From contig NC_091094.1 in NCBI RefSeq assembly GCF_024713975.1, positions 24,700,501-24,764,500 on the forward strand: a DNA stretch of 64,000 bases, read 5' to 3'. Shown piece after piece: positions 5,603 through 55,235 of this stretch. A model generated the notes under the pieces. It was not told the DNA's origin. It ran no database searches and was given only the letters and a program-made list of their open reading frames with translations. Made by a program: the position numbers and the translations under genes. The DNA is from Paralichthys olivaceus (lineage: Eukaryota; Chordata; Actinopteri; Pleuronectiformes; Paralichthyidae). Position 1 is the first letter of the stretch. Each line of letters starts with the position of its first letter.

Positions 5603-6629
5603 ACTGCATTCTTCAAAACTCCCACGATTGCTTCCTGAACTGGAGCACACCACAGGAAAGACTACAACCAACTCACTGACATTTTTGAAGAAAGAATTTC
5701 TCTCACTAACCTGAGAAATGTTGTCACTCAGGTTTTTTAAATCTTTGTATTATTTTTTAATTTTAAATAATTCTGCACAGTGTTTCCCTCATGAGAGCAG
5801 TGAATATTTTCCACCACTGCAGTCCTGTCACAACAGGCAACATTCTGCAGGAAGACAGTGTCCCCTTATTGAAATGCTCCTTCACAGCACTTTCTGTTGC
5901 TGACAAATTCAATCTCAAAGTTTCTCTGTGACTCACAGAGCGATTGTACAAATGTGCTGATCCATGATGTTTTTTTAAACCGGTTAAAGGTCCAGTGTGT
6001 AAGATTTAGGTGAAAGGGATCTATTGGTAGAAATGTAATGCAGAATAATTCTCATGATGTTTTCACTAGTTCGTTTCATCTAAATTGTATGAATTGTAGT
6101 TTTCTTTACCCCAGAAAAGACCTTTTATATTTAAATACTTTATACATAGAGGGGACCCTCTCTACAGAGGCCGACATGTTTTTTACATTAGTCCAGACTG
6201 AACAAACTAAACACCTTTTGAGTTTTTATGACAATTAAATACTACCACAGGTTCTTCTTCATGTTTGGAAGGAGAGGGTGAGGTGAGGGGTGTTCAGCTG
6301 CAACATGACATTTCAACACTAAATATCACTAAATTCTACACACTGAACCTTTAAGAGAACCAAAAAAGATAAAAGTCCATGACATCAATCAAACTTTTGT
6401 TTTAATTCACATGGTCCAGAAAGTTTCAGTATCCTGTGCAGTTCAATATGTACATACACATAGACGCACTGACTGTATAAATAACACCTTACAAGTTTTA
6501 GTAGCTCATCAGAGCAGTCCGGTGTGACTGTAGGATGAGCAAAATGTCTGTGATGTCCTCAAACGAGAGAAGGAGAATCATGTCTACTAAAAAAGAAGAG
6601 TAGGTTTCCTGTGGCATCACCTGAGTCGA
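5603..6629. other. bpi 3' flank and convergent cdk5rap1 3' flank
   Basis: This holds the probable 3' UTR of bpi (plus strand), an inverted-repeat element at 5984-6354, and then the 3' side of cdk5rap1 (minus strand). The two genes converge here. No separate gene is supported. Confidence 0.6.
5984..6354. mobile_element. Inverted-repeat element, 'AAGGTCCAGTGTGTA' family, full-length copy
   Basis: About 370 bases with terminal inverted repeats: TTAAAGGTCCAGTGTGTAAG at the left end and the complement of TTAAAGGTTCAGTGTGTAGA at the right end. It has no coding capacity. Both ends read TTAA, which could be a piggyBac-style target or simply part of the repeat. Related pieces lie at 53047-53090 and 54577-54787, so it is a dispersed non-autonomous DNA transposon family. 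Confidence 0.75.
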
Positions 6630-12469: not shown

Positions 12470-13461
12470 TGAAAATGTAATTCTTTTCTTCTTTTCTGTT
12501 TCTCTTAAGTAGTTCATTAGAAGAGTGTGTATATTCCTTGATGTCCATCCGAAGAGATGTTCTAATGTAATATTTTGCTTCTTTTTTTTTAAGTCCTAAT
12601 ATTAATTCCCTTCTTTGTTCATTATAATTGCTACACTCAGCCAATACCATAGACAGAAGAGGAGAATCTCCCCTTTTCTGCAACGTATGGTGCATAACTG
12701 AATGGGGTTGTGGATCCGGAAAATCTAATTTCTTCTTATTAACCCAGTTGCCCTGAAAAAACAAAAACTTTTAAAACACACATCTCCTGATTTCCTCAGT
12801 AAAAGGTAAAATGACCTGCATCAGTGTGAGCTGGAACCCAAACATGATGTTGATACCTGACTCCTGCAGACTGTTTACAAATTGAACATTATCCAAGACA
12901 ATATCCTGTCTACATTCAGATTGAATGTTCTTAATACTCTTCCACATTGCACCATCACCAGCAAATAGAGTTACTCTAATATATATATCTTTTTATATTC
13001 CTGACTACATCGTTTATCATATTAAAAAATAATAATGGGCTACTAACACTGCCCTAAGGAACACCACTTTCTACTTTATAACATCACCTAAAACCCCATT
13101 GATTTTAATTATTCGTTTCCTATCAAATAAAAACTCTTTCACCCACTGATACACTCTTGTCTTTATTCCCAGTTGATGTCATTTAATAAATAGCCCTGCT
13201 TTCCACATCGTGTCATATGCCTTTTCTATGTTAAAGAAAAGTGCTAACACAGTTTCCTTTTTAATCTTGGCTTTTCTCCTAACATCTATGAGGCACACTA
13301 TAGGGTCCACGATACCTCTGCCTCTTCTGATCCACTTTGTTAATTATGTATCAAACCTTTAGTGTCTAAATTAGTCTGTCATTTACAATTCTGTTCAAAG
13401 CAATTGGTCTATAATTACTACAGGTACTCCACTGTCTATAATTACTACAGGTACTCCACTG
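12470..13461 (-). mobile_element. Decayed minus-strand LINE, 3' half
   Basis: On the minus strand this reads, with stops and shifts, SNYRPIALNRIVNDRL (near 13420-13380), then IEKAYDTMWKAGLF, WVKEFLFDRKRIIKING and LFAGDGAMWKS. The last is a decayed form of the LFADDGA reverse-transcriptase active site of fish I-like LINEs. A C-terminal segment at 12765-12468 (NYNEQRRELILGL) follows. The 5' continuation lies beyond a younger insertion, at 15831-16146. Confidence 0.75.
13408..13461. repeat. 27-bp perfect tandem duplication at the 5' junction of the inserted LINE
   Basis: The unit starting GTCTATAATTACTACAGG and ending TACTCCACT occurs at 13408-13434 and again directly at 13435-13461. It is part of the older LINE (the antisense of SNYRP). 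It sits exactly where the younger LINE begins. Confidence 0.9.
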
Positions 13462-15830
13462 CCTCTACTGCTTCTCAGAGCAACAACCCCCCACCTCCCC
13501 CCACCACCCTCTGCCCCACACCACACCCGTCACCATCTCCCCCCACCCCTCCGCTGGCTTTCACCACAGACTTTTTCACACCTTCCACCCCCGGGACATC
13601 CTCACATCACCCACAGTCCCCCACCACCACCACCTCCTGCAACACACACCTCTTTGCATCACCCTCAAACCCACCACTGACATCCCCTACCCTCCAGTCT
13701 GGACTACACATCACAGCCAGCCAGGTGAGGAGAGAGCTGGAGAGGCTCAAACAGAGGAAAGCTGCTGGACCGGACCTCATCAGCCCTCGTGTGCTGAAGG
13801 CATGTTCCAGCCAGCTCTGTGGAGTCCTCCAGCACCTCTTCAACCTGAGCCTACACCTTCAGAGAGTGCCAGTGCTCTGGAAAACATCCTGCCTGGTCCC
13901 AGTGCCCAAAAAAGGACGTCCTGCTGCACTGGAGGACTACAGGCCGGTGGCACTGACCTCTCACATCATGAAGGTCATGGAGAGACTGGTATTGGCACAC
14001 CTCAGACCGCTGGTGTGCCCATCACAAGACCCCCTGCAGTTTGCATATCAGCCCCATGTTGGGGTTGATGATGCAATCATCTACCTGCTGCAGAAGGCCT
14101 ACTCCTCTCTGGACAGACCCAACACCTCAGTCCGGATCATGTTTTTTGATTTCTCCAGCGCCTTCAACACCATCCAGCCCAGACTGCTGAAGGCCAAACT
14201 GGAGGGCACGCGGGTGAGTGCTCCCCTCATCACTTGGGTCGATGACTATCTGACGGGCAGACCACAGTTTGTGAGATTACAGAACTGTGTGTCTGATCGT
14301 CTGATCAGTAACATCGGGGCCCCCCAGGGAACTGTACTGTCCCCCTTCCTCTTCACCACATACACTGCTGACTTTAAGCACTGCACTGAGTCGTGTCATC
14401 TGCAGAAGTTCTCTGATGACACGGCCATTGTGGGGTGTGTTGAGGGCGGGGGGGAGGCTGAGTACAGGGACCTGGTTGACCGCTTTGTGAAGTGGTGTGG
14501 GGAGAACCGCCTGCAGCTCAACGTGGAGAAGACGAAGGAGATGGTGGTGGATTTCAGGAGGAACAAGCCCGTGCCCTCTCCTGTCTGCATCGGTGGGACG
14601 GATGTGGAGGTGGTACCTGCATACAAGTACCTGGGTATCACACTGGATAATAAACTGGACTGGTCCACTCACACAGAGGCCGTCTACAAGAAGGGCCTGA
14701 GCCGGCTTTACTTCCTGAGGAGGCTCGGGTCTTTCAATGTCTGCAACAAGATGCTGCAGATGTTCTATCAGTCTGTTGTGGCGAGCACCATCTTCTTTGC
14801 TGTGGTGTCCTGGGGTGCGGGCATCAAGGCAAAGGACGCCAACAGACTGAACAAAATCATCAGGAAAGCCGAGTCTGTGGTTGGCTCTAAGCTTGTCACC
14901 CTGGAGGAGGTGGTGGAGAACAGGATGCTGGCAAAACTGCTGGCAATCATGGACAATCCCTCTCACCCCCTCCACAAAACACTGGACAAGTTAAAGAGCA
15001 GCTTCAGCCACAGGCTCATCCAACCCCGCTGCTCTAAGGAGCGATACAGGAAATCGTTCATTCCAACCGCAATAAGACTCTATAACTCATCTACCTCTGT
15101 CAGAGCCACCATTACAGAACTGCACTAATATACCTGTCACCTTTCCACCATGTACCCTGCACTACACTACGTGTGTTAATTTAAACCACTTTAATATTAC
15201 AGACCTTTTTATACAATAATATTGTCTTTTGCACATCCAGTCCACGTATTCTTACACTGCCAGTATATTGTATAGTCAAGTACTTATAATTATACCCTAC
15301 TATATATTATATATCATATCATATTATATCATACTCTGCATATTCTCTGTATATTCTTCGGATTTACAAGTCTAGATACACATATTTATACATGTGTACA
15401 TGCTATTATTATATTATTATTATCACTACTACTACTACTATTATTATTATTATATATACTATTGCTGCCATTATTACTATATACTGCTATTATATTGGTA
15501 TAATTACTGTCTATATAAATATATATTATGTTATATTGTATACTATATATATATATATAAATATATACTGTACTAATATTCTTATATACTGTCTAACAAT
15601 AACATTACCATCATATCATTATTACTATTATCATCATATTGCCACTGCACTACTTGTCTGCCTATTCATCTTGTGTTTCTGTTTCTGTTCTTTTTACCTA
15701 AATGTTTTGTTTTGTTTTGTTCTATTGCATTGTGTTTTGTTGTGTTCCGATACACAAGCTGCTATGACACCTTAATTTCCCTCCGGGGATGAATAAAGTA
15801 CTCTATCTATCTATCTATCTATCTATCTTA
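13462..15830 (+). mobile_element. L2/CR1-group LINE, 5'-truncated, with intact reverse transcriptase frame
   Basis: An open frame runs to the stop at 15126-15128. It holds a proline-rich linker, then a full reverse transcriptase: KAAGPDLISPRVLK, EDYRPVALTSHIMKVMERL, FFDFSSAFNTIQP, GAPQGTVLSPFLFT, the active site KFSDDTAIVGC near 14406-14438, and NVEKTKEMVVDFRR. C-terminal motifs DNPSHPLHKTL and RYRKSFIPTAIRLYNS follow. The upstream endonuclease domain is missing, so the copy is truncated at its 5' end and cannot move on its own. The 3' UTR is AT-rich and ends in GATGAATAAAGTA plus a (TCTA)n tail, typical of fish L2-like elements. The undisturbed frame argues for a recent insertion. Confidence 0.92.
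15380..15830. repeat. AT-rich simple sequence and (TCTA)n tail of the LINE
   Basis: Runs of TAT/TAC triplets, TATA tracts and a final block of about seven TCTA units (15803-15830) make up the 3' end of the L2-type LINE. Open frames here are rich in Y and I only because of this composition. Confidence 0.85.
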
Positions 15831-36607: not shown

Positions 36608-38139
36608 TTCCCTCTGTTTCTGTTGTTAGCGCTGCGACGGTGGATAGTCCTGCTGCCGTTACACGTCATGTATGTCCTCCGTCGTGTGAAGTGTTTATAC
36701 GGTGTGTAACCCGTTGAGAGGCGGTGCCGGAGGCTGGTTGTCGGTGAGTTGTCGGTGAGCTGTCGTTGTTTTGGCCGGTGGAGGCAGCGGTGCAGCCCGG
36801 GTTCTCCTCCGCGCTCTTGGATTCCTATCTCGCGCTCTTCTCTGTCGTCCTAACCAGGAAGTGACGTAGAGGAAATTCCGCTAAGGGGTTGGTCTTCAAA
36901 ATAAAGCTTTAACGCAAGGATTTGTGAAAGTAAAGTAAAAACCACACAAAAAAAACCACCAAACTTGAACCAAACTTCTTGGACGGGTTCTGGTATCGAC
37001 GAAAAAATCCTGTTTACTGCCAAGTTTAAACAGCCCTACAATGGACATAAGGATAATGACAATATGTCCTTATAATAAAAATAAAGACAAACACAGGGCC
37101 TAATGACTGAAAGTCTACGATTCAAAGTTGTGCTTAAGGTGAGTAGTCCAATCTGCCTTAAATTTCAAATGTATGACAAAGGTCCCACCCTGAACGGATC
37201 TATATGATAATATGTAATAATGGTCATAGTGCCCCCTTGCTGTAACAGGAAATATCATGTTTTACATTTTGGTGTCCTGCGGCTTGCCCGTTTACCCGAT
37301 GCATGTGACATTTGGTCAGGAGAGCCTAAAGGAGTTCATGATGCCATACAATAAAACTTGTAAAAATTTTGTCAGGGAGCTACGTCTTGCTTTTTCATTT
37401 CATCTACCTCAGTTGGTCAGGGAAGCCTAGAGACATTGGTGATGACATGTTGTGACACTTATACCTTTACATTGAACTCTTCGATGGAAAACCAACAAAC
37501 AGGAAGTGGTTGTAATGTCACTGCACATGCTCCGATGTCCCTTAAATTGATAAGTGCTGTACCTGTCTTTACAAACACCTGGTGGATGCTGGTAGATACA
37601 GTATTTTCAAGTCTGGCTGTTTTCTGTCTCTCTGTGAGTGTGTCACAACTTCAGCTCAAGGAAAGCAACATAAGAGACAAAACTAATGATTGGGATTGAT
37701 GAACATTTATTTGAAACCCACAGAAACATGCAAACAGTACATTGAGAGACACTTGGCTCCTGCAGGGTCTGGGTTAGAGCCTGGCTGGTTTCTTACTGTC
37801 AGGTATGCAGCAGGTGGCACACAATAAAATAATAGTGACATGTTCACAAACTTATCCACAATGTAATATATAATTAATAAACTCCAACTATCCACAGTCA
37901 CATCCGACAACCTTTTCATACTTTACTCTGTACTTTATCCATATTAATAATGCTGTCAAATATATATAAAAAATACACATATTATTAACAATACACAATT
38001 TGGCCGTTTGGAATCCCACCTGCCCTCTAAAAGGAAAATAAAACACCATAGTTCCTTTAAAGACAGTAACAATAACATCAAATGTCCTCATATCCACAAA
38101 TTCTGAAACTCTAGACATAGACAGATCCATGAGTGAGTA
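36608..38139. other. mybl2 promoter side and intergenic DNA
   Basis: The 250 bases next to the mybl2 start are GC-rich and lack TATA. They hold GGAAGTGACGTA at about 36858-36869, which combines ETS-like and CRE-like cores. TCTCGCGC near 36826 is weakly E2F-like. From about 36900 to 38139 the sequence is AT-rich without a supported gene. Two similar phrases, GGTCAGGAGAGCCTAAAGGA (37314) and GGTCAGGGAAGCCTAGAGAC (37416), hint at an old repeat. Confidence 0.5.
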
Positions 38140-38469
38140 CTCAGAATATTTAAATAAAAGTGTCAATAACTTCAGTTTATTTTCACAATATGGTTTTTCC
38201 AAAGTTGAATACAAAAGAGAGACTATTCATTTCATATATAAGTATTTATTTTAAATCACAAAAGGAGCATGTTGTTGAACTATGTTAAAATCTTTTGAGA
38301 TGCGCCTGTATGTTGAAAAGGTAGAGTTGAATATGATGAACATGTTGCCTGTATCCACTCACACCGGAGTGTATCATGCCTGAGTGACGATGCTGTGCTC
38401 CTGCAAAGGAACTCTTCAACCTGGAGGAAGATCTGTTCCAGGATGTGCTTGGCAACCCTCTGATCTTTA

Positions 38470-39215
38470 TCCAACTTTGGAGCCACAAGAAAATATCCCG
38501 CACACCATTACACAACCACCACCAGCCTGAACCGTTGATACAAGGCAGGATGGATCCATGCTTTCATGTTGTTTATGCAAAATTCTGATCCTACCATCTG
38601 AATGTCGCAGCTGAATTTGAGACTCATCAGACCAGGCAACATTTTTCCAATCTTCTATTGTCCAAATCTGGTGAGCCTGTGAGAATTGTAGCCTCAGTTT
38701 CCTGTTCTTAGCTGACAGGAGTGGCACCTGGTGTGGTCTTCTGCTGCTGTAGCCCATCTGCTTCAAGGTTCCACGTGTTGTGTGTTCAGAGATGGTATTC
38801 TGCATACATGGTTGTAACGAGTTGTTATTTGAATTACTGTTGCCTTTCTATCATCTCGAACCACTCTGCCCATTCTCCTCTGACATCTACAAGGAATTTT
38901 TGTCCACACAACTGCCTCTCACTGGATATTTTCTCTTTTTCTGACCATTCCCTGTAAACCCTAGAGATGGTTGTGCGTGAAAATCCCAGTAGATCAGCAG
39001 TTTTGGAAAAACTCAGACCAACAACCATGTCACATTCAAAGTCACTTAAATCCCCTTTATTTGCCATTCTGATCCTCGGTTTGAACTTCAGCAAGTCGTC
39101 TTCACCACGTCTAGATGCCTAAATACATTGAGTTGCTGCCATGTGATTGGCTGATTAGCTATTTGTGTTAACAAGCAATTGAACAGGCGTGCCTAATAAA
39201 GTGGCCGTGAATGTA
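38470..39215 (-). mobile_element. Truncated Tc1-like DNA transposon inside the ift52 copy
   Basis: The minus strand reads a DNA-binding N-terminus (MANKGDLSDFECDMVVGLSF, then KTADLLGFSRTTISRVYREW) and, in another frame, catalytic-core pieces TIEDWKNVAWSDESQIQLR and GGGCVMVCGIFS. The right end (complement) reads TACATTCACGGCCACTTTAT, the terminal repeat of a common fish Tc1-like family. The other terminal repeat and the transposase C-terminus are missing; the element joins ift52 exon sequence near 38470. It is not functional. Confidence 0.85.
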
Positions 39216-39282
39216 GAACTCAAGATTTACTGCTGCACCTGTGAACAGAAGCAGTTAGATTAGAACATATTGTAGTCTTACT

Positions 39283-39720
39283 GTGGCCCTGTTGTTTGAA
39301 CATCGGTCCTGACTCCTGAGAGATTGATCACATGTGGACAGTGTTAAGTACATGTGTTCACACCAGACATTAAAACTCATCCTGAATGTGTCATCTGTGG
39401 CAGATTTCACTTCCCCGCTCTATATGCAAATTATTATGTATGTAATTTGTGTTAGATGACCAAATTATATTATATAATATTACTTATTATACAGATGCGT
39501 CCGATGACAATGTTTGTTTGGGTCCATGAGAGGAAAAAAGGGGGCAAGCGGAGTCATGAAGGGCTGACTGAATGAATGCGCAGCTTGGTCTATGAAGAAA
39601 GATTTTATCCATTGAAAAAAAAAAAATATTATTTGGTTGCTAATGATGATATTGTGACCACAAGTTAAAAAAAACGCATGGTCACTGAGAAGAGTATAAA
39701 ACACTTCTGCTAATAGGCAG
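39283..39720. mobile_element. Inverted-repeat element, 'GGCCCTGTTCACACCTGG' family, copy in the ift52 pseudogene
   Basis: This occupies the same intron position as the copy at 44078-44572 in the intact gene, so it was present before the duplication. Its inner end has been lost with the neighbouring exons. Confidence 0.7.
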
Positions 39721-41375
39721 TCCTATTATGTCATAATAATAAGAGCTGTAATGATGGAATAATGTTGTCAGCTACATTTTGCAGTCACCTGATGACTTGG
39801 GGTAAGGTGTCAGTGGAAAATTTTAACAAAGACATGTCAAAGAGAGAGGTGATGTCCCTAAGGTATACATCATCTTCTTGTAAACACACTCTGAGCTGCT
39901 CTGACAAGAACCCTGTGTCTGGCAACATGGTGTAATCTGTTATCTAGAGGAGAAACGGGTAAGATGGAGATCAGTTAATGTGAAAGACAATAATAATGAG
40001 GCCATTCTCCTCTCGAGTGTACATCCTCACCTCTGGGTCTTCTGCATCAATCTGATTCAGCTGTATATTGTCAGTCATGAGCCACTGCAGCACCATATCC
40101 TGGAATGAAAATAATAAAACTGACTGAACTGACTTGAAGTCCACAGGAGAGCAAAACAATTCTTAACATCTGATGTGTTCATTAACAAATCTTTGAATGT
40201 CAACTGGACTCACCAGGATTTTACTGTTCTCTTCTTTGTCGATGTATTGGTCACTGAACATGTGGCAAGAACCCAACACAACCAGTTTGCCAGCCTCCTT
40301 CATAACATACAAGACATCTTTGAATATCACCTCACAAGAATAAATTCATAACTATTATAGAGTATAAAAGGTACTTGAAGCCTCTAACCTTTCCTTGATA
40401 GAAGGCCAAGACAGGCCTGTTAAGGGGGAAGCAGACTGAGCCAGTAGAAAGAACAGGGATGGCCGGCTTCATCACACTCAGTGTGGCACCGTACGGGTAC
40501 ACGAAGGTCAGAGCTCTACACAAACAAACGGAAACACCTTCAAAACCAGCTCCCAAATCCTAGTGCGAAATGGTTCAGGCTAAGAAGTATATATAGACAA
40601 ATCATTTACTGTGCATTGTTCCCAACATTTTCATCTTCAATGATTCCTGTGACCACTTTGCCAGCAGCCCGACTGATCTCTCTAGAAAAGAGGAAAGCAG
40701 AAAACTTAGATGTACATCAACAATTTCATTTGAATAGGCTCTGCAGGTTACAAACAAACAGGGATTGATTGGAATATGTTTGCAAAAGAAAAACAATATG
40801 CTGCTGCAGCAAACCTGTTCAATACACCATTAGACACAAGCGCCTCCTTAGGATGGAAGTATTTGCAATATGCATTCCTCACAACAGCATCTGCAGCAGA
40901 CACGGAGGGAAAGATAATACATGATTCCATGAAATGACAATAAAAACACTTCTGACTGATCTTATCTGTCCTTTCAGTCATTTTAATACACACCATTGTT
41001 GACCAGTATTCCAAACTCCTCCAGGAGGAAGTTGATGTTGGTGTCATATTTGACTTCTCCTCCTTCACCGAGCATGACCAGGACGTTTCCTCCTCCATCC
41101 AGGTAGTGCTTCAGCACCTCTAGCTGGAAACACATGGGGACAGTGTCAAATACATGCTGGTGTGAAAACCAGCGGGCAAGTGTTTCACTTCCGCCTCTTT
41201 TGTTGAATCACATGAGTTATAAATCACATCAAATAAACTAAACTGATACAAGACATCGTGTGATTATTCATCACCTCTGATGCTGTGAACATCTCTCTCG
41301 GACCTGCAGAGATCCACAACTTGACGTCCTCCAGCTTCTTCGAGGACAGCTCATGTTTCATGCTGTGGAACATCG

Positions 41376-42471
41376 TCGTTTAAGTTAAATATAATCATAT
41401 GTTCTGCATCAAAGGAGAGCCCATATTAGAAGGACGGATGCTGCTATGATGATATTATTGTAGTTTTTAGTACAGTATACTCACCCACACACATACACAC
41501 ACACATATATATAAATATATACACACACATACATACATACCTTGTAGAGAAGCTTCTGACAGTTTTACTGTACCCGAGTGTGATGACAATAAAGCATAAA
41601 GCATAAAACATTTGAATCTTGAAACAGCCCTGTAATGGAAATAATAATAAAATATAATAATTCAAAACAACAAACAAATGAAACAGATAATAATAATCAC
41701 AACAATAATGGGGGATGAAAATACACAAATATCCTCCTGTACCTTCGAACGGATCACACGTTGCAAAATATGTTTTTATTTTCTAAGGCACAAACGCTTT
41801 TTAATTTTGTTATTTTTTCAGAAAATATACATCTTAGAACTTTGTTGCCTCATTAATCACTGTCTAAGAAAGCTACAGGTGCAAACAAAATATATGAAAC
41901 TCAACGTTACATTTAAAAAAATCACTGGATCTCTACATCCAATAGCTTGAGGTCTAGTAATTATTTATGTTATTGACAGAAAATAAACTATCACTTAAGT
42001 CAAGTATCACAAGATTTACTAGTTTCAATCTCTCAAATGTAAATATTTGCAGCTTTACTCTTTGTAATATTATTATAAATTAAACATATTTGGGTTGTGA
42101 ACCACTGGTTGTACAAAGTGAGCAGTTAAAAGTATTTTTAGACTTTCAGGCAATAAATTAATATTAGTTAATAAGCTTGTTTTGTTTGTTCGGTTTTCTT
42201 AACACATTTCTTAATTAGAATATTCTTCAGACATAAATTTCAAAAATAAATTCGAATAATACATGAAAATATGAAAAAATGTCAAACAAACGTCTCAAAC
42301 ATGTCCGTGCCTGATCTGCCTATTGCTTGAGAGGCTTGCATCCCCCCCCCTCCCCCCTTCCTCCTTCAGACTGATGACCTGTTCATTCTCCAGCTGAGTC
42401 AATTAACATGCAGCCTCAGATGTTTAAAAGCCACCTGGACCTCAGCTGACACTCACAGGCCCAGGGAAACA
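41376..42471. other. Spacer between the ift52 pseudogene and the small plus-strand gene
   Basis: AT-rich, with an ACAC/ATAC simple tract at 41485-41540. No exon is supported. The last 60 bases look like a promoter: TTTAAAAG at 42422-42429 followed by CCACCTGG, which contains the E-box CACCTG at 42432-42437, 35-40 bases before the start codon. Confidence 0.5.
42422..42440 (+). promoter_or_regulatory. TATA-like element with adjacent E-box
   Basis: TTTAAAAG sits next to CACCTG, 35-50 bases before the ATG of the small gene at 42472. The close spacing to the ATG implies a very short 5' UTR if this is the TATA box. Confidence 0.4.
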
Positions 42472-43063
42472 ATGGAGAAAGCTTTTGTCATTACAGGTAA
42501 GAATATAGGTTTTATTCTGCAAATGGATTTATTTAAATCTGATCAGGTGATATGTGACATTTTACTTCCTAGATATGAAAAGCTTTGAGTGTTCATCTCC
42601 ATCAGAGCTTGACAAGAAGTTCTTTGGTGAACAGAGTTTGATGTCAGCTTTGTCGCTGGAGCAGCTATCCATGTCAAGGGCATCAAATGAAACTATGGCT
42701 GATGGATCTGACACCAGGCTGTCGGGCCTGGCTTTCCTCTGCCTGTCATCAGACCCCATTTCTCCCACTGTGACGATTTCAGTGAACAACATGAATAATC
42801 AAGAAAAAGACAACTGTCACCTGACTGTTCCTTTACAGGGAAAGTCCTCCACTCCCTACGTGCTCCTTCAGAAAAGACAAAAAGTTGCTTTGTCCGACCA
42901 GTCGTTCAGTGATCTCACTGCCTCTCAAATGTCCTGGGATGTGTCTCTGATTAAATCGGAGAGCAACAGCCCCAAATCTTGCATCGAGTCCAGCGCTCTG
43001 GAGTCAACGTGGAGTCCGAAACCTCCGTCGAGAAAACCTTCACTGGCTGGAGTTTCCCCCTGA
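42472..43063 (+). CDS. Uncharacterised Ser-rich protein, two exons, 171 codons
   Basis: I do not recognise this protein. Exons 42472-42496 and 42573-43063 join in frame through a 76-base intron (ACAG|GTAAGA ... TTCCTAG). The product starts MEKAFVITDMKSFECSS and ends SRKPSLAGVSP. It is about 19 percent serine, with no signal peptide, membrane segment or zinc-binding pattern. Its C-terminal third carries proline-directed Ser sites (SESNSPKSC, STWSPKPP, AGVSP) and a short basic patch (QKRQK). An AATAAA at 43359-43364 gives a full transcription unit with TATA-like box and intron. It sits tail-to-tail with ift52, their poly(A) signals 27 bases apart. Human GTSF1L lies near this position but this lacks its zinc fingers. 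A real gene is likely; its function is unknown. Confidence 0.7.
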
Positions 43064-43765
43064 TTACATCCACCCTCAGACACTTAACAATTCGGAGGCT
43101 GAAAAGTAAAAATAGTTTTCTATGGCTGTACATTGTCTTCTCTGAACCCACCATGTATCTAAGATGACTCAGTGTGAATCTTAAAGGACTGGCTGATAAT
43201 ATAAAAGGTACAATGGTCAAGTTTAAAAGTTAAAGATTCATTATTGTTTGTGATGCCAACATCATTTCATCTTATTGGTTTTACCACAGGGGCCATGTGT
43301 GAGGACTCGTGCAGAGCTGTTTGTCTACAACAATGTTTTTAAAGATTTGAATATTTAAAATAAAAGTGTCAATAACTTTATTTGTGTCAGTTTATTTTAA
43401 CAATGATTTATTTTATTCCATGATTGCATACAAAAGAGGTATAAAGATTACTAACTTAATATACAGTCTGTAAACACAAAAGTACCATGTTGGGAAAGTC
43501 CATGATCATATCTATGTTAGAATCTACCTATCAGCTTGGTCATGGAACAGGTGTGTTAAAATCCTGGGAAAGATAAATATAATTTTAATTCAAAAAGAGA
43601 AACTTTGTATATTCTAGATTCATTACAGGGTGTGAAATATATCACGCCTCTTTGTTTTGATATGAAAGTTCACTTTTTGAAAAACATTACCTTCATGATA
43701 TTAAATTATTTTAAGCAGCACCTGTCTATTGAAAAGGCAGAGTTGAAAAGGTTGCTTAAATCCAC
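43064..43765. other. Overlapping 3' ends of the small gene and ift52
   Basis: The plus-strand AATAAA at 43359-43364 and minus-strand AATAAA (TTTATT at 43391-43396) face each other. Cleavage downstream of each would make the two mRNAs overlap by some tens of bases. The same pair of signals is copied at about 38150-38190 in the pseudogene block. Confidence 0.6.
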
Positions 43766-46700
43766 TCAGACCGGAGTGAATCGTGCCTCAGTGTCGATGT
43801 CGTGCTCCTGCAAAAGGGAAGTTAACTTTTAGACAAGTCCTTCAAGATGGAAATAAAGTTGCTTGGAGAAGATGAAAAGGTTCTCTCACCTGATTGAGTT
43901 TCTTGAACTCTACGACCTGAAAGAAAATGTGTTCCAAGATGTGCTTGGCGTCCCTCTGCTCTTTATCCAACTTAGGCGTCACACCCAGAATTTCACCACA
44001 TTTACGCACATAGAACTCAAGATCGTCGTCCGTACCTGTGACCAGAACCAGTTTGATTAGAACAGATTATGTTACTGTGGCCCTGTTCACACCTGGTATT
44101 AACATCTGTCCTGAGATACTGATTAGAAGTGGACAGCATTAAGTTCAGTTTGTTCACACCTGACATCAAAATGCATCCTGAGTATGTGTCTCATTGCCAC
44201 TTGTGATTGGATCTCACTTTCCTGCTCTAGAGGCCAATGATTTTACATAATGTGTTCGAAGACCAAATTATGTTTTTACCGTCTTACTGTATAGATGTGC
44301 CCGATGACTGCATTTGTGTCGCATGAGAGCAGAGTCGGGACTTAGGAGGGGCTAAATGAATGAATGCGCAGTCTGAAGAAAGATTTTACCCATTAAAATA
44401 AAATCATGTGGTTAAAAAAAATGTGACCACAAACAACTCAACATATGGTCACCAAGAAGAGTAAAAACATGTCTGGATAGTAGACGTCCCTCATGTGGCC
44501 TAACATTCATGGACACATTTGGGTATGTTTGTGCCTGCACTTAGTGCTGACCACTTGTGAACAGGGTGTAAATCATCAAACTGACCAGATCATTTTTTGT
44601 TTTCAGTAACAAACTCACATTTATTGGTGAGCTGTGCTAGCCGCACTTTCTCAGAAGAGAACGTTTCATCCAGATCAAACAGGTCCAACATGGGTGGAGG
44701 TAGATCACTTAAGGCAGGTGGAAAGACCTTAAATGAGGCAAGATCCACTTGTGAGTTTGGACTGGTGGGGCTTTGACTTGCAGATGACTAGAATGTGAGT
44801 GATAAGTGTGTAAAACACTGGAACACAAACGCAGGATTGAAACTTACAGCAGGTTGAAGCTGAGGCAGTGGAGTCTCAAACTGTGGTGTGATCAGCTGAA
44901 GTGGCTCGTCTTTGACATTAAGCTGTTTGTAAGCACTGCAGAAAAAAAATATTCTTAGACATAAAGAGAAAAAGTGCTGTAATGATGGAATAATGTTGTC
45001 AGGTACATTTTGCAGTCTCACCTGATGACTTGGGGTAAGGTGTCAGTGGACAAATTGAACAAAGACATGTCAAAGAGAGAGGTGAAGTCCCTGGGGTTTT
45101 CATCACCCTCTTGTAAACACACTCTGAGCTGCTCTGACAAACACCCTGTGTCTGGCAACATGGTGTAATCTGTTATCTAGGGGAGAAGAGGGTAAGATGG
45201 AGATCAGGGGCCTGAACCACCACAATGTAAAGTGATCTGTATAAACACTTAGCATTACAGTTTTCCTAAATTGCTGAGTTAATCTTATTGGAACTGAATC
45301 AGCATGATCTTCCTCATCACCTTCATTACAGCAAACGTTCTCTTAAACTTTTTCATTGGGTTCACACATTTACACACATTTACATCTAAGTTGCACATTG
45401 TATAATTCCTGATTCCTTCTGTATGAATCTAATGCACCTGTGTGAAGCTCCTTATTCAGTTATCAGTCATAATACACCCATATGAAGTATCACCTCTGTG
45501 TTAATCTTCACAAACATGGATTTGCATTGTTTGCATATTTTGGCACAAACTATAATTTATAAAGTTCACATCTCTGTCTTATGAACAGTTCAGGGGGAAA
45601 CTTGAGCATAAAACAAAGCCAAACATCTCATTACATGCTGATATTTAAATAAAGACAGGAGACATTTAGGGACACAATAAAGTCATAACAGTTATGATAT
45701 GATATGATAAAATACATTGATGCTGGAGCTATGATTGATGATCACATAATCTGCCTCATGTTCTCATGGGGCTTTAATGACATCTATCCAATAGAAAAAT
45801 ATGTTCTGTATGTAGGTCTGCTACTATACATACTATATTATAGACCACCTTTTTTTTTTTTTACAGTAGATCACCTGCAATTGCATGAAAAACATCTTCA
45901 GAAAACGTTAACGTGACATATGCATCCAGCAGTTTAGTGACAATAACTATCACCTATGAACTAAAGTGGATCAAGCTTCTCATAATCCTTCAATAGCTAC
46001 TGGGTTTTAAGATTGTGTGGGGTGGGCGGTGCTTCTATAGGACAACAGAGTTGACCATGAACAAAACTGCTCAGAGCAGTTTGAAGTTGCAGCGAACGTT
46101 GCCATGGCTGCATACATTTGGTTCAACCTAACCTCCTTCTTTCAGTTAAGCATGAAGGTACTTATGATGTCACAAAGTTTCCCCTGAACTTACAATGATA
46201 AGCCAGTTCCCTTGCTTTGTACTACAGATCACAGCTAATGTGAAAGAAAATAATAATGAGGCCATTCTCCTCTCGAGTGTACATCCTCACCTCTGGGTCT
46301 TCTGCATCAATCTGATTGAGCTGAATATTGTCAGTCATGAGCCACTGCAGCACGACATCCTGGAATGAAAATAATAAAACTGACTGAACTGACTTGAAGT
46401 CCACAGGAGAGCAAAACAACTCTTAACATCTGATGTGTTCATTAACAAATCTTTGAATGTCAACTGGACTCACCAGGATTTTACTGTTCTCTTCTTTGTC
46501 GATGTATTGGTCACTGAACATGTGGCAAGAACCCAACACAACCAGCTTGCCAGCCTCCTTCATAACATACAAGACATCTTTGAATATCACCTCACAAGAA
46601 TAAATTCATAACTATTATAGAGTATGAAAGGTACTTGAAGCCTCTAACCTTTCCTTGATAGAAGGCCAAGACAGGCCTGTTGAGGGGGAAGCAGACTGAG

Positions 46701-47880
46701 CCAGTAGAAAGAACAGGGATGGCCGGCTTCATCACACTCAGTGTGGCACCGTACGGGTACACGAAGGTCAGAGCTCTACACAAACAAACAGAATCATGTT
46801 CAAAACCAGCTCCCAAATCCTAGTGCGAAATGGTTCAGGCTAAGAAGTATATATAGACAAATCATTTACTGTGCATTGTTCCCAACATTTTCATCTTCAA
46901 TGATTCCTGTGACCACTTTGCCAGCAGCCCGACTGATCTCTCTAGAAAAGAGGAAAGCAGAAAACTAGATGTACATCAACAATTTCATTTGAATAGGCTC
47001 TGCAGGTTACAAACAAACAGGGATTGATTGGAATATTTTTGCATAAGAAAAACAATATGCTGCTGCAGCAAACCTGTTCAATACACCATTAGACACAAGC
47101 GCCTCCTTAGGATGGAAGTATTTGTAATACACATTCCTCACAACAGCATCTGCAGCGGACACGGAGAGAAAGATAATACATAATTCCATGAAATTATAAT
47201 AAAAACACTTCTGACTGATCTTATCTGTCCTTTCAGTCATTTCAATACACACCATTGTTGACCAGTATTCCAAACTCCTCCAGGAGGAAGTTGATGTTGG
47301 TGTCATATTTGACTTCTCCTCCTTCACCGAGCATGACCAGGACGTTTCCTCCTCCATCCAGGTAGTGCTTCAGCACCTCCAGCTGGAAACACATGGGGAC
47401 AGTGTCAAATACATGCTGGTGTGAAAACCAGCGGGCAAGTGTTTCACTTCCGCCTCTTTTGTTGAGTCACGAGTTATAAATCACATCAAACAAACGAATT
47501 ATTATAATTACAATAAACTGATATAAGACATCCTGTCATCACCTCTGATGCTGTGAACTTCTCTCTCGGACCTGCAGAGATCCACAACTTGACGCCATGT
47601 AGCTTCTCCATGGACAGCTCATCTTTCATGCTGTGGAACACGTGGTTTATTTGTATCTTTTGTTTTCTGAAACAGACGCTTCAGACGCTGTTCGACCTGA
47701 AGCACGTAGACTAACACAGCAGACAGAGGTTAATGTTCCAGCCCAAACCTTTCCTTACCTCTGGATTTTCCACTGAGCTCGTAGTCTCTTCTGCATTGCT
47801 TTGTATCCATTGCTGGCCGTGAACACTTCTCTTTTAGAAGCGTTGAACACCACGCAGTTGTGCGATTCCCTCTCCATCAT
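43766..47880 (-). CDS. ift52: Intraflagellar transport protein IFT52, 13 coding exons
   Basis: Core subunit of the IFT-B complex, needed to build cilia. Exons: 47880-47759, 47630-47543, 47382-47253, 47149-47074, 46941-46870, 46775-46649, 46557-46474, 46359-46291, 45176-45022, 44935-44848, 44727-44619, 44035-43890, 43807-43766. They give 435 codons in frame; human has 437. The N-terminal GIFT domain contains LWISAGPREKFTASE, NVLVMLGEGGEVKYDTNINFL (split here as family hallmark), ALTFVYPYGATLSVMKPAIP and VVLGSCHMFSDQYIDKEE. The middle reads QLNQIDAEDPE, and the C-terminal part LFDLDETFSSEKVRLAQL, then LEFYVRKCGEILGVTPKL and EHDIDTEARFTPV. In the family the C-terminal part holds IFT46 and IFT88/70 contacts. 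Two ATGs open the frame (MMERES); either could start. A partial copy lies downstream. Confidence 0.96.
44078..44572. mobile_element. Inverted-repeat element, 'GGCCCTGTTCACACCTGG' family, copy in ift52 intron 11
   Basis: The left end is GGCCCTGTTCACACCTGGTA; the complement of the right end is ATTTACACCCTGTTCACAAG. Inner landmarks match the copies at 33909 and 39283. It is about 495 bases and non-coding. Confidence 0.75.
45205..46225. other. Intron 8 block of ift52 absent from the pseudogene
   Basis: About 1 kb of AT-rich sequence lies between exons 9 and 8 of ift52. It is missing in the copy, where the flanks join directly. The six bases AGATCA stand at both edges (about 45200 and 46226) and once in the copy. 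This fits either a microhomology deletion in the copy or an insertion with a 6-bp target duplication here. No coding sequence is seen in it. Confidence 0.65.
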
Positions 47881-54142: not shown

Positions 54143-55235
54143 CTCCGATCGAATGTGAGCGTTGATTCCAGAAGTTAGAAAACAACTAGTGTTGGTGTTG
54201 GGCCGCAGCAGTGAGGCCGAGCAGAGGACGCGCAGGGGTCTGTCCGTTTCCGGCAGAACACTACAAAATAAAAGCGTGCTGTCCAAAAGAAGGACAATTA
54301 CGTAAATAGTAAACACATGTAAAATTACACAGCCTTTAATCTACTCAGCCACTTCGTCAACAAACAAATAAACAAAAATGACTCCACATAAATGTGTCAG
54401 TAGATTTTAAGACACTATTGCAGGTGGATGACTCTGTACATCATTCCATCATGTCACTTTGTATCATCTCCTTGAGGATCAGTCAGTATATTTTCAATGG
54501 TCGTCCTGTCTCAGGTCCTCACTGTATTCAGTTTGTGTCTCGACTTCAGATCATGCAGATTGCTGCTGTTTGCAATTTGAAGGTTCAGTGTGTAGAATTT
54601 TGTGATATCTAGTGTTGAAGTTTCATGTTGCAGCTGAATATGGAGAGGGTGAGGTGAGGGGTGTTCAGCGTTTAAATATAAAGTATTTAAATATAAAGGG
54701 CCTTTTCTGGAGTAAAGAAAACTACAATTCATACAATTTAGATGAAACGAACTAGTGAAAACATCATGAGAATTATTCTACATTAAATGTCTGTTTGTTT
54801 TCCACCTCTAATCACAACTAAGATCTGTCCACTATTAGCACACTGATAGAGTCAATGCTGCTCTTATGTTTGTGTGATGCCTTTCCAAAAGCTTGATGAA
54901 ACAAACCTCTGTGCTTTGTATTTCTTATGTTAAATAGAAAATGATGTGTCAAATCAATGACACTTCAAAAAGTATAAGCAGATCCTTGCAGTAGAATATG
55001 GTCTCGACATTGATGAATTTCAAATATAAGTATGTGACGATGAGCAGCTCATAGAATAAATCTCATTGAACAAATGACAAGCATGCCTCTATTAGAACCT
55101 CTCATTCTTTATTGACTGTCAACATGTTCTTCATACAGAAATCATAAACCTCATAATCAATATATTTATATTATATTAATCTATTTTAAAAATGGACAAC
55201 ATGGAGCTATACATAAATTAGACTGAGGAATGTTT
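54143..55235. other. srsf6 promoter side and acot8 3' flank
   Basis: The first 150 bases are the srsf6 5' side. A repeat copy sits at 54577-54787. A minus-strand AATAAA (TTTATT near 55109) is a plausible acot8 poly(A) signal, about 125 bases after its stop. No gene is supported. Confidence 0.5.
54577..54787. mobile_element. 'AAGGTCCAGTGTGTA' element, internally deleted copy
   Basis: This is in reverse orientation to the copy at 5984. It keeps one end (GAAGGTTCAGTGTGTAGAAT), the GGAGAGGGTGAGGTGAGGGG block and the GATGAAACGAACTAGTGAAA block. The sequence between them is missing, and so are the last about 50 bases. Confidence 0.75.

Follow-up and report, generated by a model that had tools for sequence, protein, structure and literature searches.

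A partial ift52 copy in Paralichthys olivaceus with a 5' part probably overwritten from its parent gene by gene conversion

Introduction

The cilium gene ift52 is accompanied by a second, broken copy in the window of the Paralichthys olivaceus genome analyzed here, which comprises 64,000 nucleotides (NC_091094.1, positions 24,700,501 to 24,764,500 of the forward strand; all coordinates below are counted from the first letter of this window). One half of the broken copy is nearly identical to the parent gene, introns included, and the other half is decayed; the locus raises the question of how a single duplicate came to carry such different amounts of divergence side by side. Among the papers listed on ift52 duplication in fish and on ift52 pseudogenes, none stood out by its title as describing an ift52 duplicate. 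The question also has a practical side: short-read mapping and expression counts can go wrong where a cilium gene has a nearly identical broken neighbor, and so can ages estimated from identity over the whole copy.

Results

An intact parent gene and a partial, non-processed copy

The parent gene (copy B) occupies 43342..47880 on the reverse strand. Its 13 coding exons fall within 43766-47880, and a 3' untranslated region makes up the remainder. The exon model and its translation give an intact frame of 455 amino acids with GT/AG at the internal splice sites. Its assignment as ift52 is further based on the Pfam domains IFT52_GIFT, IFT52_central, and Itf52_C, all matched above the cut-off, and on matches of the translation to the solved IFT52 chains 5fms and 8bd7, which we take to be from mouse and from an alga, respectively. 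With the B peptide as the query, no relatives were confirmed in the viral and prokaryote collections.

The partial copy (copy A) lies about 2 kb beyond the 3' end of B, in the same orientation, and spans approximately 38074-41382 as delimited by self-comparison, affine-gap alignment, and exon mapping. Its left end is firm from 38143 and uncertain to about 38074: within a narrow comparison, 2 of 2000 shuffles equalled the score of the extension to the latter position, whereas a wider comparison picked another place, whose score of 28.5 was not distinct from the shuffles (mean, 27.0). No homology was seen to the right of 41382, where 929 of 2000 shuffles were as good. Copy A retains exons 2 to 9 with every GT/AG site, as well as exon 13; exons 1, 10, and 11 and parts of the 3' region are gone, and exon 12 is split by an insert of about 720 bases (38488..39212, reverse strand, edges approximate), so that the coding capacity of the parent has been lost. 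The insert is absent from B and is the remnant of a transposase, a reverse-strand frame in it matching Pfam HTH_Tnp_Tc3_2 (E 1.2e-11), presumably of the Tc1/mariner family.

Introns 2 to 7 of A align with those of B, and introns 8, 9, and 11 align in part; A is a non-processed copy. Retroposition had been considered when the homology seemed to stop near the poly(A) site, and it is rejected because the introns are retained, which a usual retrocopy would not show. Intron 11 of both copies shares a common stretch (A 39240-39735, B 44036-44510) that in our view resembles a fish non-autonomous DNA transposon; if so, the element would predate the duplication.

Identity to the parent changes abruptly along the copy

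Self-comparison yielded a series of collinear matches in direct orientation, from 95.2% identity at A 39972-41382 (B 46232-47649) and 91.6% at A 39738-39974 (B 44969-45207) to 68% at A 39214-39709 (B 44011-44475), 83.5% at A 38409-38487 (B 43905-43983), and 75% at A 38282-38407 (B 43698-43814). A MAFFT global alignment was discarded, as its kilobase gaps forced the left part into spurious columns, and mismatches were counted on an affine-gap alignment instead; the columns of the insert (38488-39212), inside which the aligner had put some 20 spurious ones, were removed beforehand. The remaining 2419 ungapped columns contain 232 mismatches. The best cut into two segments falls in intron 9, at A 39744/39745 (B 44975/44976), with a 95% support range of A 39734-39756; the 3' half of A has 176 mismatches in 792 columns (22%) and the 5' half has 56 in 1627 (3.4%), and the Bayesian information criterion (BIC) is 1349.8 for two segments compared with 1536.6 for one.

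A sequence-only reading of this locus had judged the divergence too uneven for a single duplication followed by decay, and had proposed aligning the two blocks and applying a conversion test such as GENECONV. In its place we combined the change-point fit with a permutation of mismatches within the exonic and noncoding classes. The two-segment gain of 101.2 log units was reached by 0 of 10,000 permutations (maximum, 16.6), and the longest identical run, of 238 bases, likewise by 0 of 10,000. The step is real, and A contains a patch significantly more similar to B than the homology flanking it.

Four zones could be described within A, all on the reverse strand. The old zone (38143..39744) is the 3' half given above, with many indels, and its mismatches amount to 147/644 in noncoding and 29/148 in exonic columns. 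The intermediate zone (39745..39988) consists of exon 9 and adjoining parts of introns 9 and 8 and has 18/244 mismatches (12/155 in exon 9, 6/89 noncoding). The young core (39989..41326) matches B 46249-47594 and differs from it by 29 substitutions in 1328 columns, introns included, and by 4 indels, all of them in introns. The right edge (41327..41382), where some 20 bases of intron 1 adjoin the 5' part of exon 2, has 9/55. The K80 distances are 0.264, 0.078, 0.022, and 0.185 for the old zone, intermediate zone, core, and right edge, respectively; within one 3.3-kb pseudogene, one half is about 12 times more diverged than the core.

BIC values for two, three, and four segments (1349.8, 1349.6, and 1350.3) are not separated. 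Support for the intermediate zone and for the right edge is thus post hoc, and the finer three- or four-segment structure is suggestive only. In post hoc Fisher tests, the intermediate zone differs from the old zone (3.4e-8) and from the core (9.8e-5); the right edge differs from the core (8.6e-6) but is not distinguished from the old zone (0.40), which it resembles, or from the intermediate zone (0.06). The zone around exon 9 also lies far under the old-zone rates (binomial P of 3.5e-5 for exonic and 4.9e-5 for noncoding sites), the boundaries having been taken from the same data. Viewed as flanks of the patch, the older-looking homology comprises 792 aligned bases on the left (176 mismatches) and, by a post hoc test, only 55 on the right (9 mismatches). 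Clustering inside the core is ambiguous, with P values of 0.09 for the 238-base identical run and 0.009 for the variance among 50-base bins.

These zones sharpen what the letters had first suggested. Near-identity from exon 8 to exon 2 holds for the core, but the young part is uneven, and exon 2 (9/88 mismatches) is more diverged than the core; decay from exon 9 onward holds for the old zone, but exon 9 itself falls on the younger side, with more divergence than the core; and the boundary is sharp, but its edge lies about 235 bases to the left of 39980, where it had been placed. Within the core, noncoding columns (18/718) are about as similar to B as exonic ones (11/610). Intronic sites have been homogenized about as well as coding sites, and selection on the protein therefore does not explain the identity steps.

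Both steps lie close to large gaps

Ten aligned columns separate the main step from a site (39735..39736) at which A lacks 464 bases of B (44503-44966), including exons 10 and 11. The second step is 18 aligned columns from a site (39971..39972) at which 1027 bases of B intron 8 are absent; its support range is wide (A 39910-40162), and because the step is so poorly located, its closeness to the gap is a hint that may be luck. In B, GATCA stands at both ends of the 1027-base stretch, and A retains one of the two, which fits a deletion in A between short repeats, the alternative being an insertion in B.

According to a review (PMC3924837), conversion goes on until substitutions, transposable elements, or other large indels disrupt pairing. 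The locus is similar to this model of the end of concerted evolution in that the insert and the big deletions lie in the diverged half of A and both changes in identity occur near big gaps, and an escape of the half with these heterologies while the other half was refreshed would fit it; it differs from the model in that the order of insertion, deletion, and conversion in A carries no dates.

Discussion

Gene conversion from the parent as the probable cause

The reading we favor, with a probability of roughly 0.8, is an old duplication followed by interlocus gene conversion from B over the 5' part of A, probably in more than one round. It is the best supported because the young stretch sits in collinear register with older homology, its introns are about as similar as its exons, and the steps lie near heterologies; underlying it is a comparison of two DNA sequences. 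From the identity steps, their closeness to the two gaps, the core introns, and the intact B, we infer a conversion process, the direction in which it ran, and how many rounds and deletions there were, and in what order, as follows. Copy A, which lies about 2 kb downstream from its parent, would be a non-processed partial copy of old origin. Its 3' half would have decayed, lost exons 10 and 11, and gained the Tc1-like insert in exon 12, and these large heterologies may then have barred it from later exchange, while the still alignable 5' half was overwritten from B. At least two rounds are probable. The earlier would have extended to exon 9, and the later would have covered only exons 8 to 3 and most of exon 2.

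B is the likelier donor and A the likelier recipient. At the 9 replacement codons in exons 2 to 8, the mouse chain agrees with B in 7, with A in 1, and with neither in 1. Identity between B and mouse is 75 to 96% in each of exons 3 to 8 (exon 1, 57%; exon 2, 76%), giving no sign of imported damage in the core of B; both observations point to B as the source. The differing sites of exon 9 fall outside the mouse match, and at its 9 replacement codons the algal chain, compared by eye, agrees with B in 2, with A in 2, and with neither in 5, which polarizes nothing.

The size of the patch and the divergence of the old zone count against conversion. The core and the intermediate zone together make up about 1.6 kb of A, which exceeds most of the tract estimates (50 to several hundred bases) given in a review (PMC3924818), and the 78% identity of the old zone is under the 80% level above which, in the same review, conversion is mainly seen. 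Since the patch is longer than usual tracts, several overlapping rounds are likelier than one, and the graded edges also suit them.

CYP21A2 and its pseudogene are a familiar human case of interlocus gene conversion. As there, the ift52 copies are close paralogues in direct orientation with an intact copy as the likely donor, and a high-identity patch that includes introns lies inside older-looking homology; unlike the disease direction (conversion disease data for CYP21A2 are listed in PMC3924818), the direction proposed for ift52 is from gene to pseudogene, and the patch exceeds most tract estimates in length. The pattern is ordinary in kind and its mechanism is textbook; the locus is a compact illustration of how gene conversion may be bounded by large heterologies.

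Other explanations of the young half

The sequence-only reading had left two choices, conversion over the 5' part or a second, younger copying event. Register, introns, and gaps support the former. The latter, in which a younger partial duplication of exons 2 to 9 landed against the remnant of an older copy, we consider unlikely. In its favor, the young part reaches nearly to the end of homology at 41382, only 55 older-looking bases remain to its right, and the length of the patch poses no difficulty. Against this, the new piece must hit the right place, orientation, and register and replace exons rather than add them, and the zone around exon 9, like the right edge, has a divergence level of its own, as defined post hoc. 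Because the older-looking flank on the right is so short (55 aligned bases), a second copying event is disfavored only. A fault of assembly or polishing, which would have placed sequence from B or from another allele in A or joined on a haplotype copy, is a shade less probable again; against it, the core carries the 29 substitutions and 4 indels relative to B, with a graded rise to 7% and 16% mismatch on its two sides, where a plain haplotype copy would be even.

Slow divergence of the 5' half under purifying selection, with A as a gene of its own, appears the least probable of all. Its appeal lies in the coding sequence: exons 2 to 9 of A are open, all GT/AG sites are kept, no exonic indel is found compared with 4 in the core introns, and dN and dS in exons 3 to 8 are 0.008 and 0.053, values drawn from 10 nucleotide differences only. 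However, introns in the core match B about as well as exons do, the differences fall mostly in residue-changing codons at both ends (8 against 1 silent in exon 2, 11 against 1 in exon 9), and when 33 random substitutions were simulated (31 were observed), 32% of the copies had no stop.

The open frame of A runs on the reverse strand from an in-frame ATG in exon 2 to a stop one codon into intron 9 (41361-39785), for 267 codons with splice sites kept, and its Pfam GIFT match spans profile positions 35-246 of 246, most of the domain. In exons 3 to 8, 5 differences lie in residue-changing codons and 5 are silent, too few to decide, and the substitution pattern of exons 2 and 9 is as expected without constraint. 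An open frame would in any case be expected in a copy converted recently. That A is alive, with repeated conversion from B keeping the frame for a putative shortened, GIFT-only IFT52 whose ends change freely, seems very improbable.

The interval between the copies and the remainder of the window

Between A and B, a two-exon gene of 171 amino acids is predicted from the sequence on the forward strand (42472..43063); it has no Pfam match at E 0.1. When the sequence left of A was compared with the A-B interval, no second copy of this predicted gene was seen beside A, and the 1.9-kb interval showed no long homology there. A collinear 32-base stretch (37025-37056 and 41619-41650) is identical at 26 of 32 positions by eye; of 1000 dinucleotide shuffles, 5 did as well, and under three scorings 2, 2, and 51 of 300 shuffles did. 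Chance, a dispersed element, or a remnant of a tandem unit may account for it, and A may have originated in a tandem unit that later lost most of the A-B interval. A reverse-complement comparison gave a score of 102, where shuffles averaged 82 and reached at most 109.

Elsewhere in the window, a long frame on the forward strand (13344-15128) matches Pfam RVT_1 (E 5.5e-25) and represents a LINE-like element. Two inverted repeats about 48 kb apart (6029-6354 and 54577-54792), which match in two blocks at 95% and 92% identity, are probably a dispersed element.
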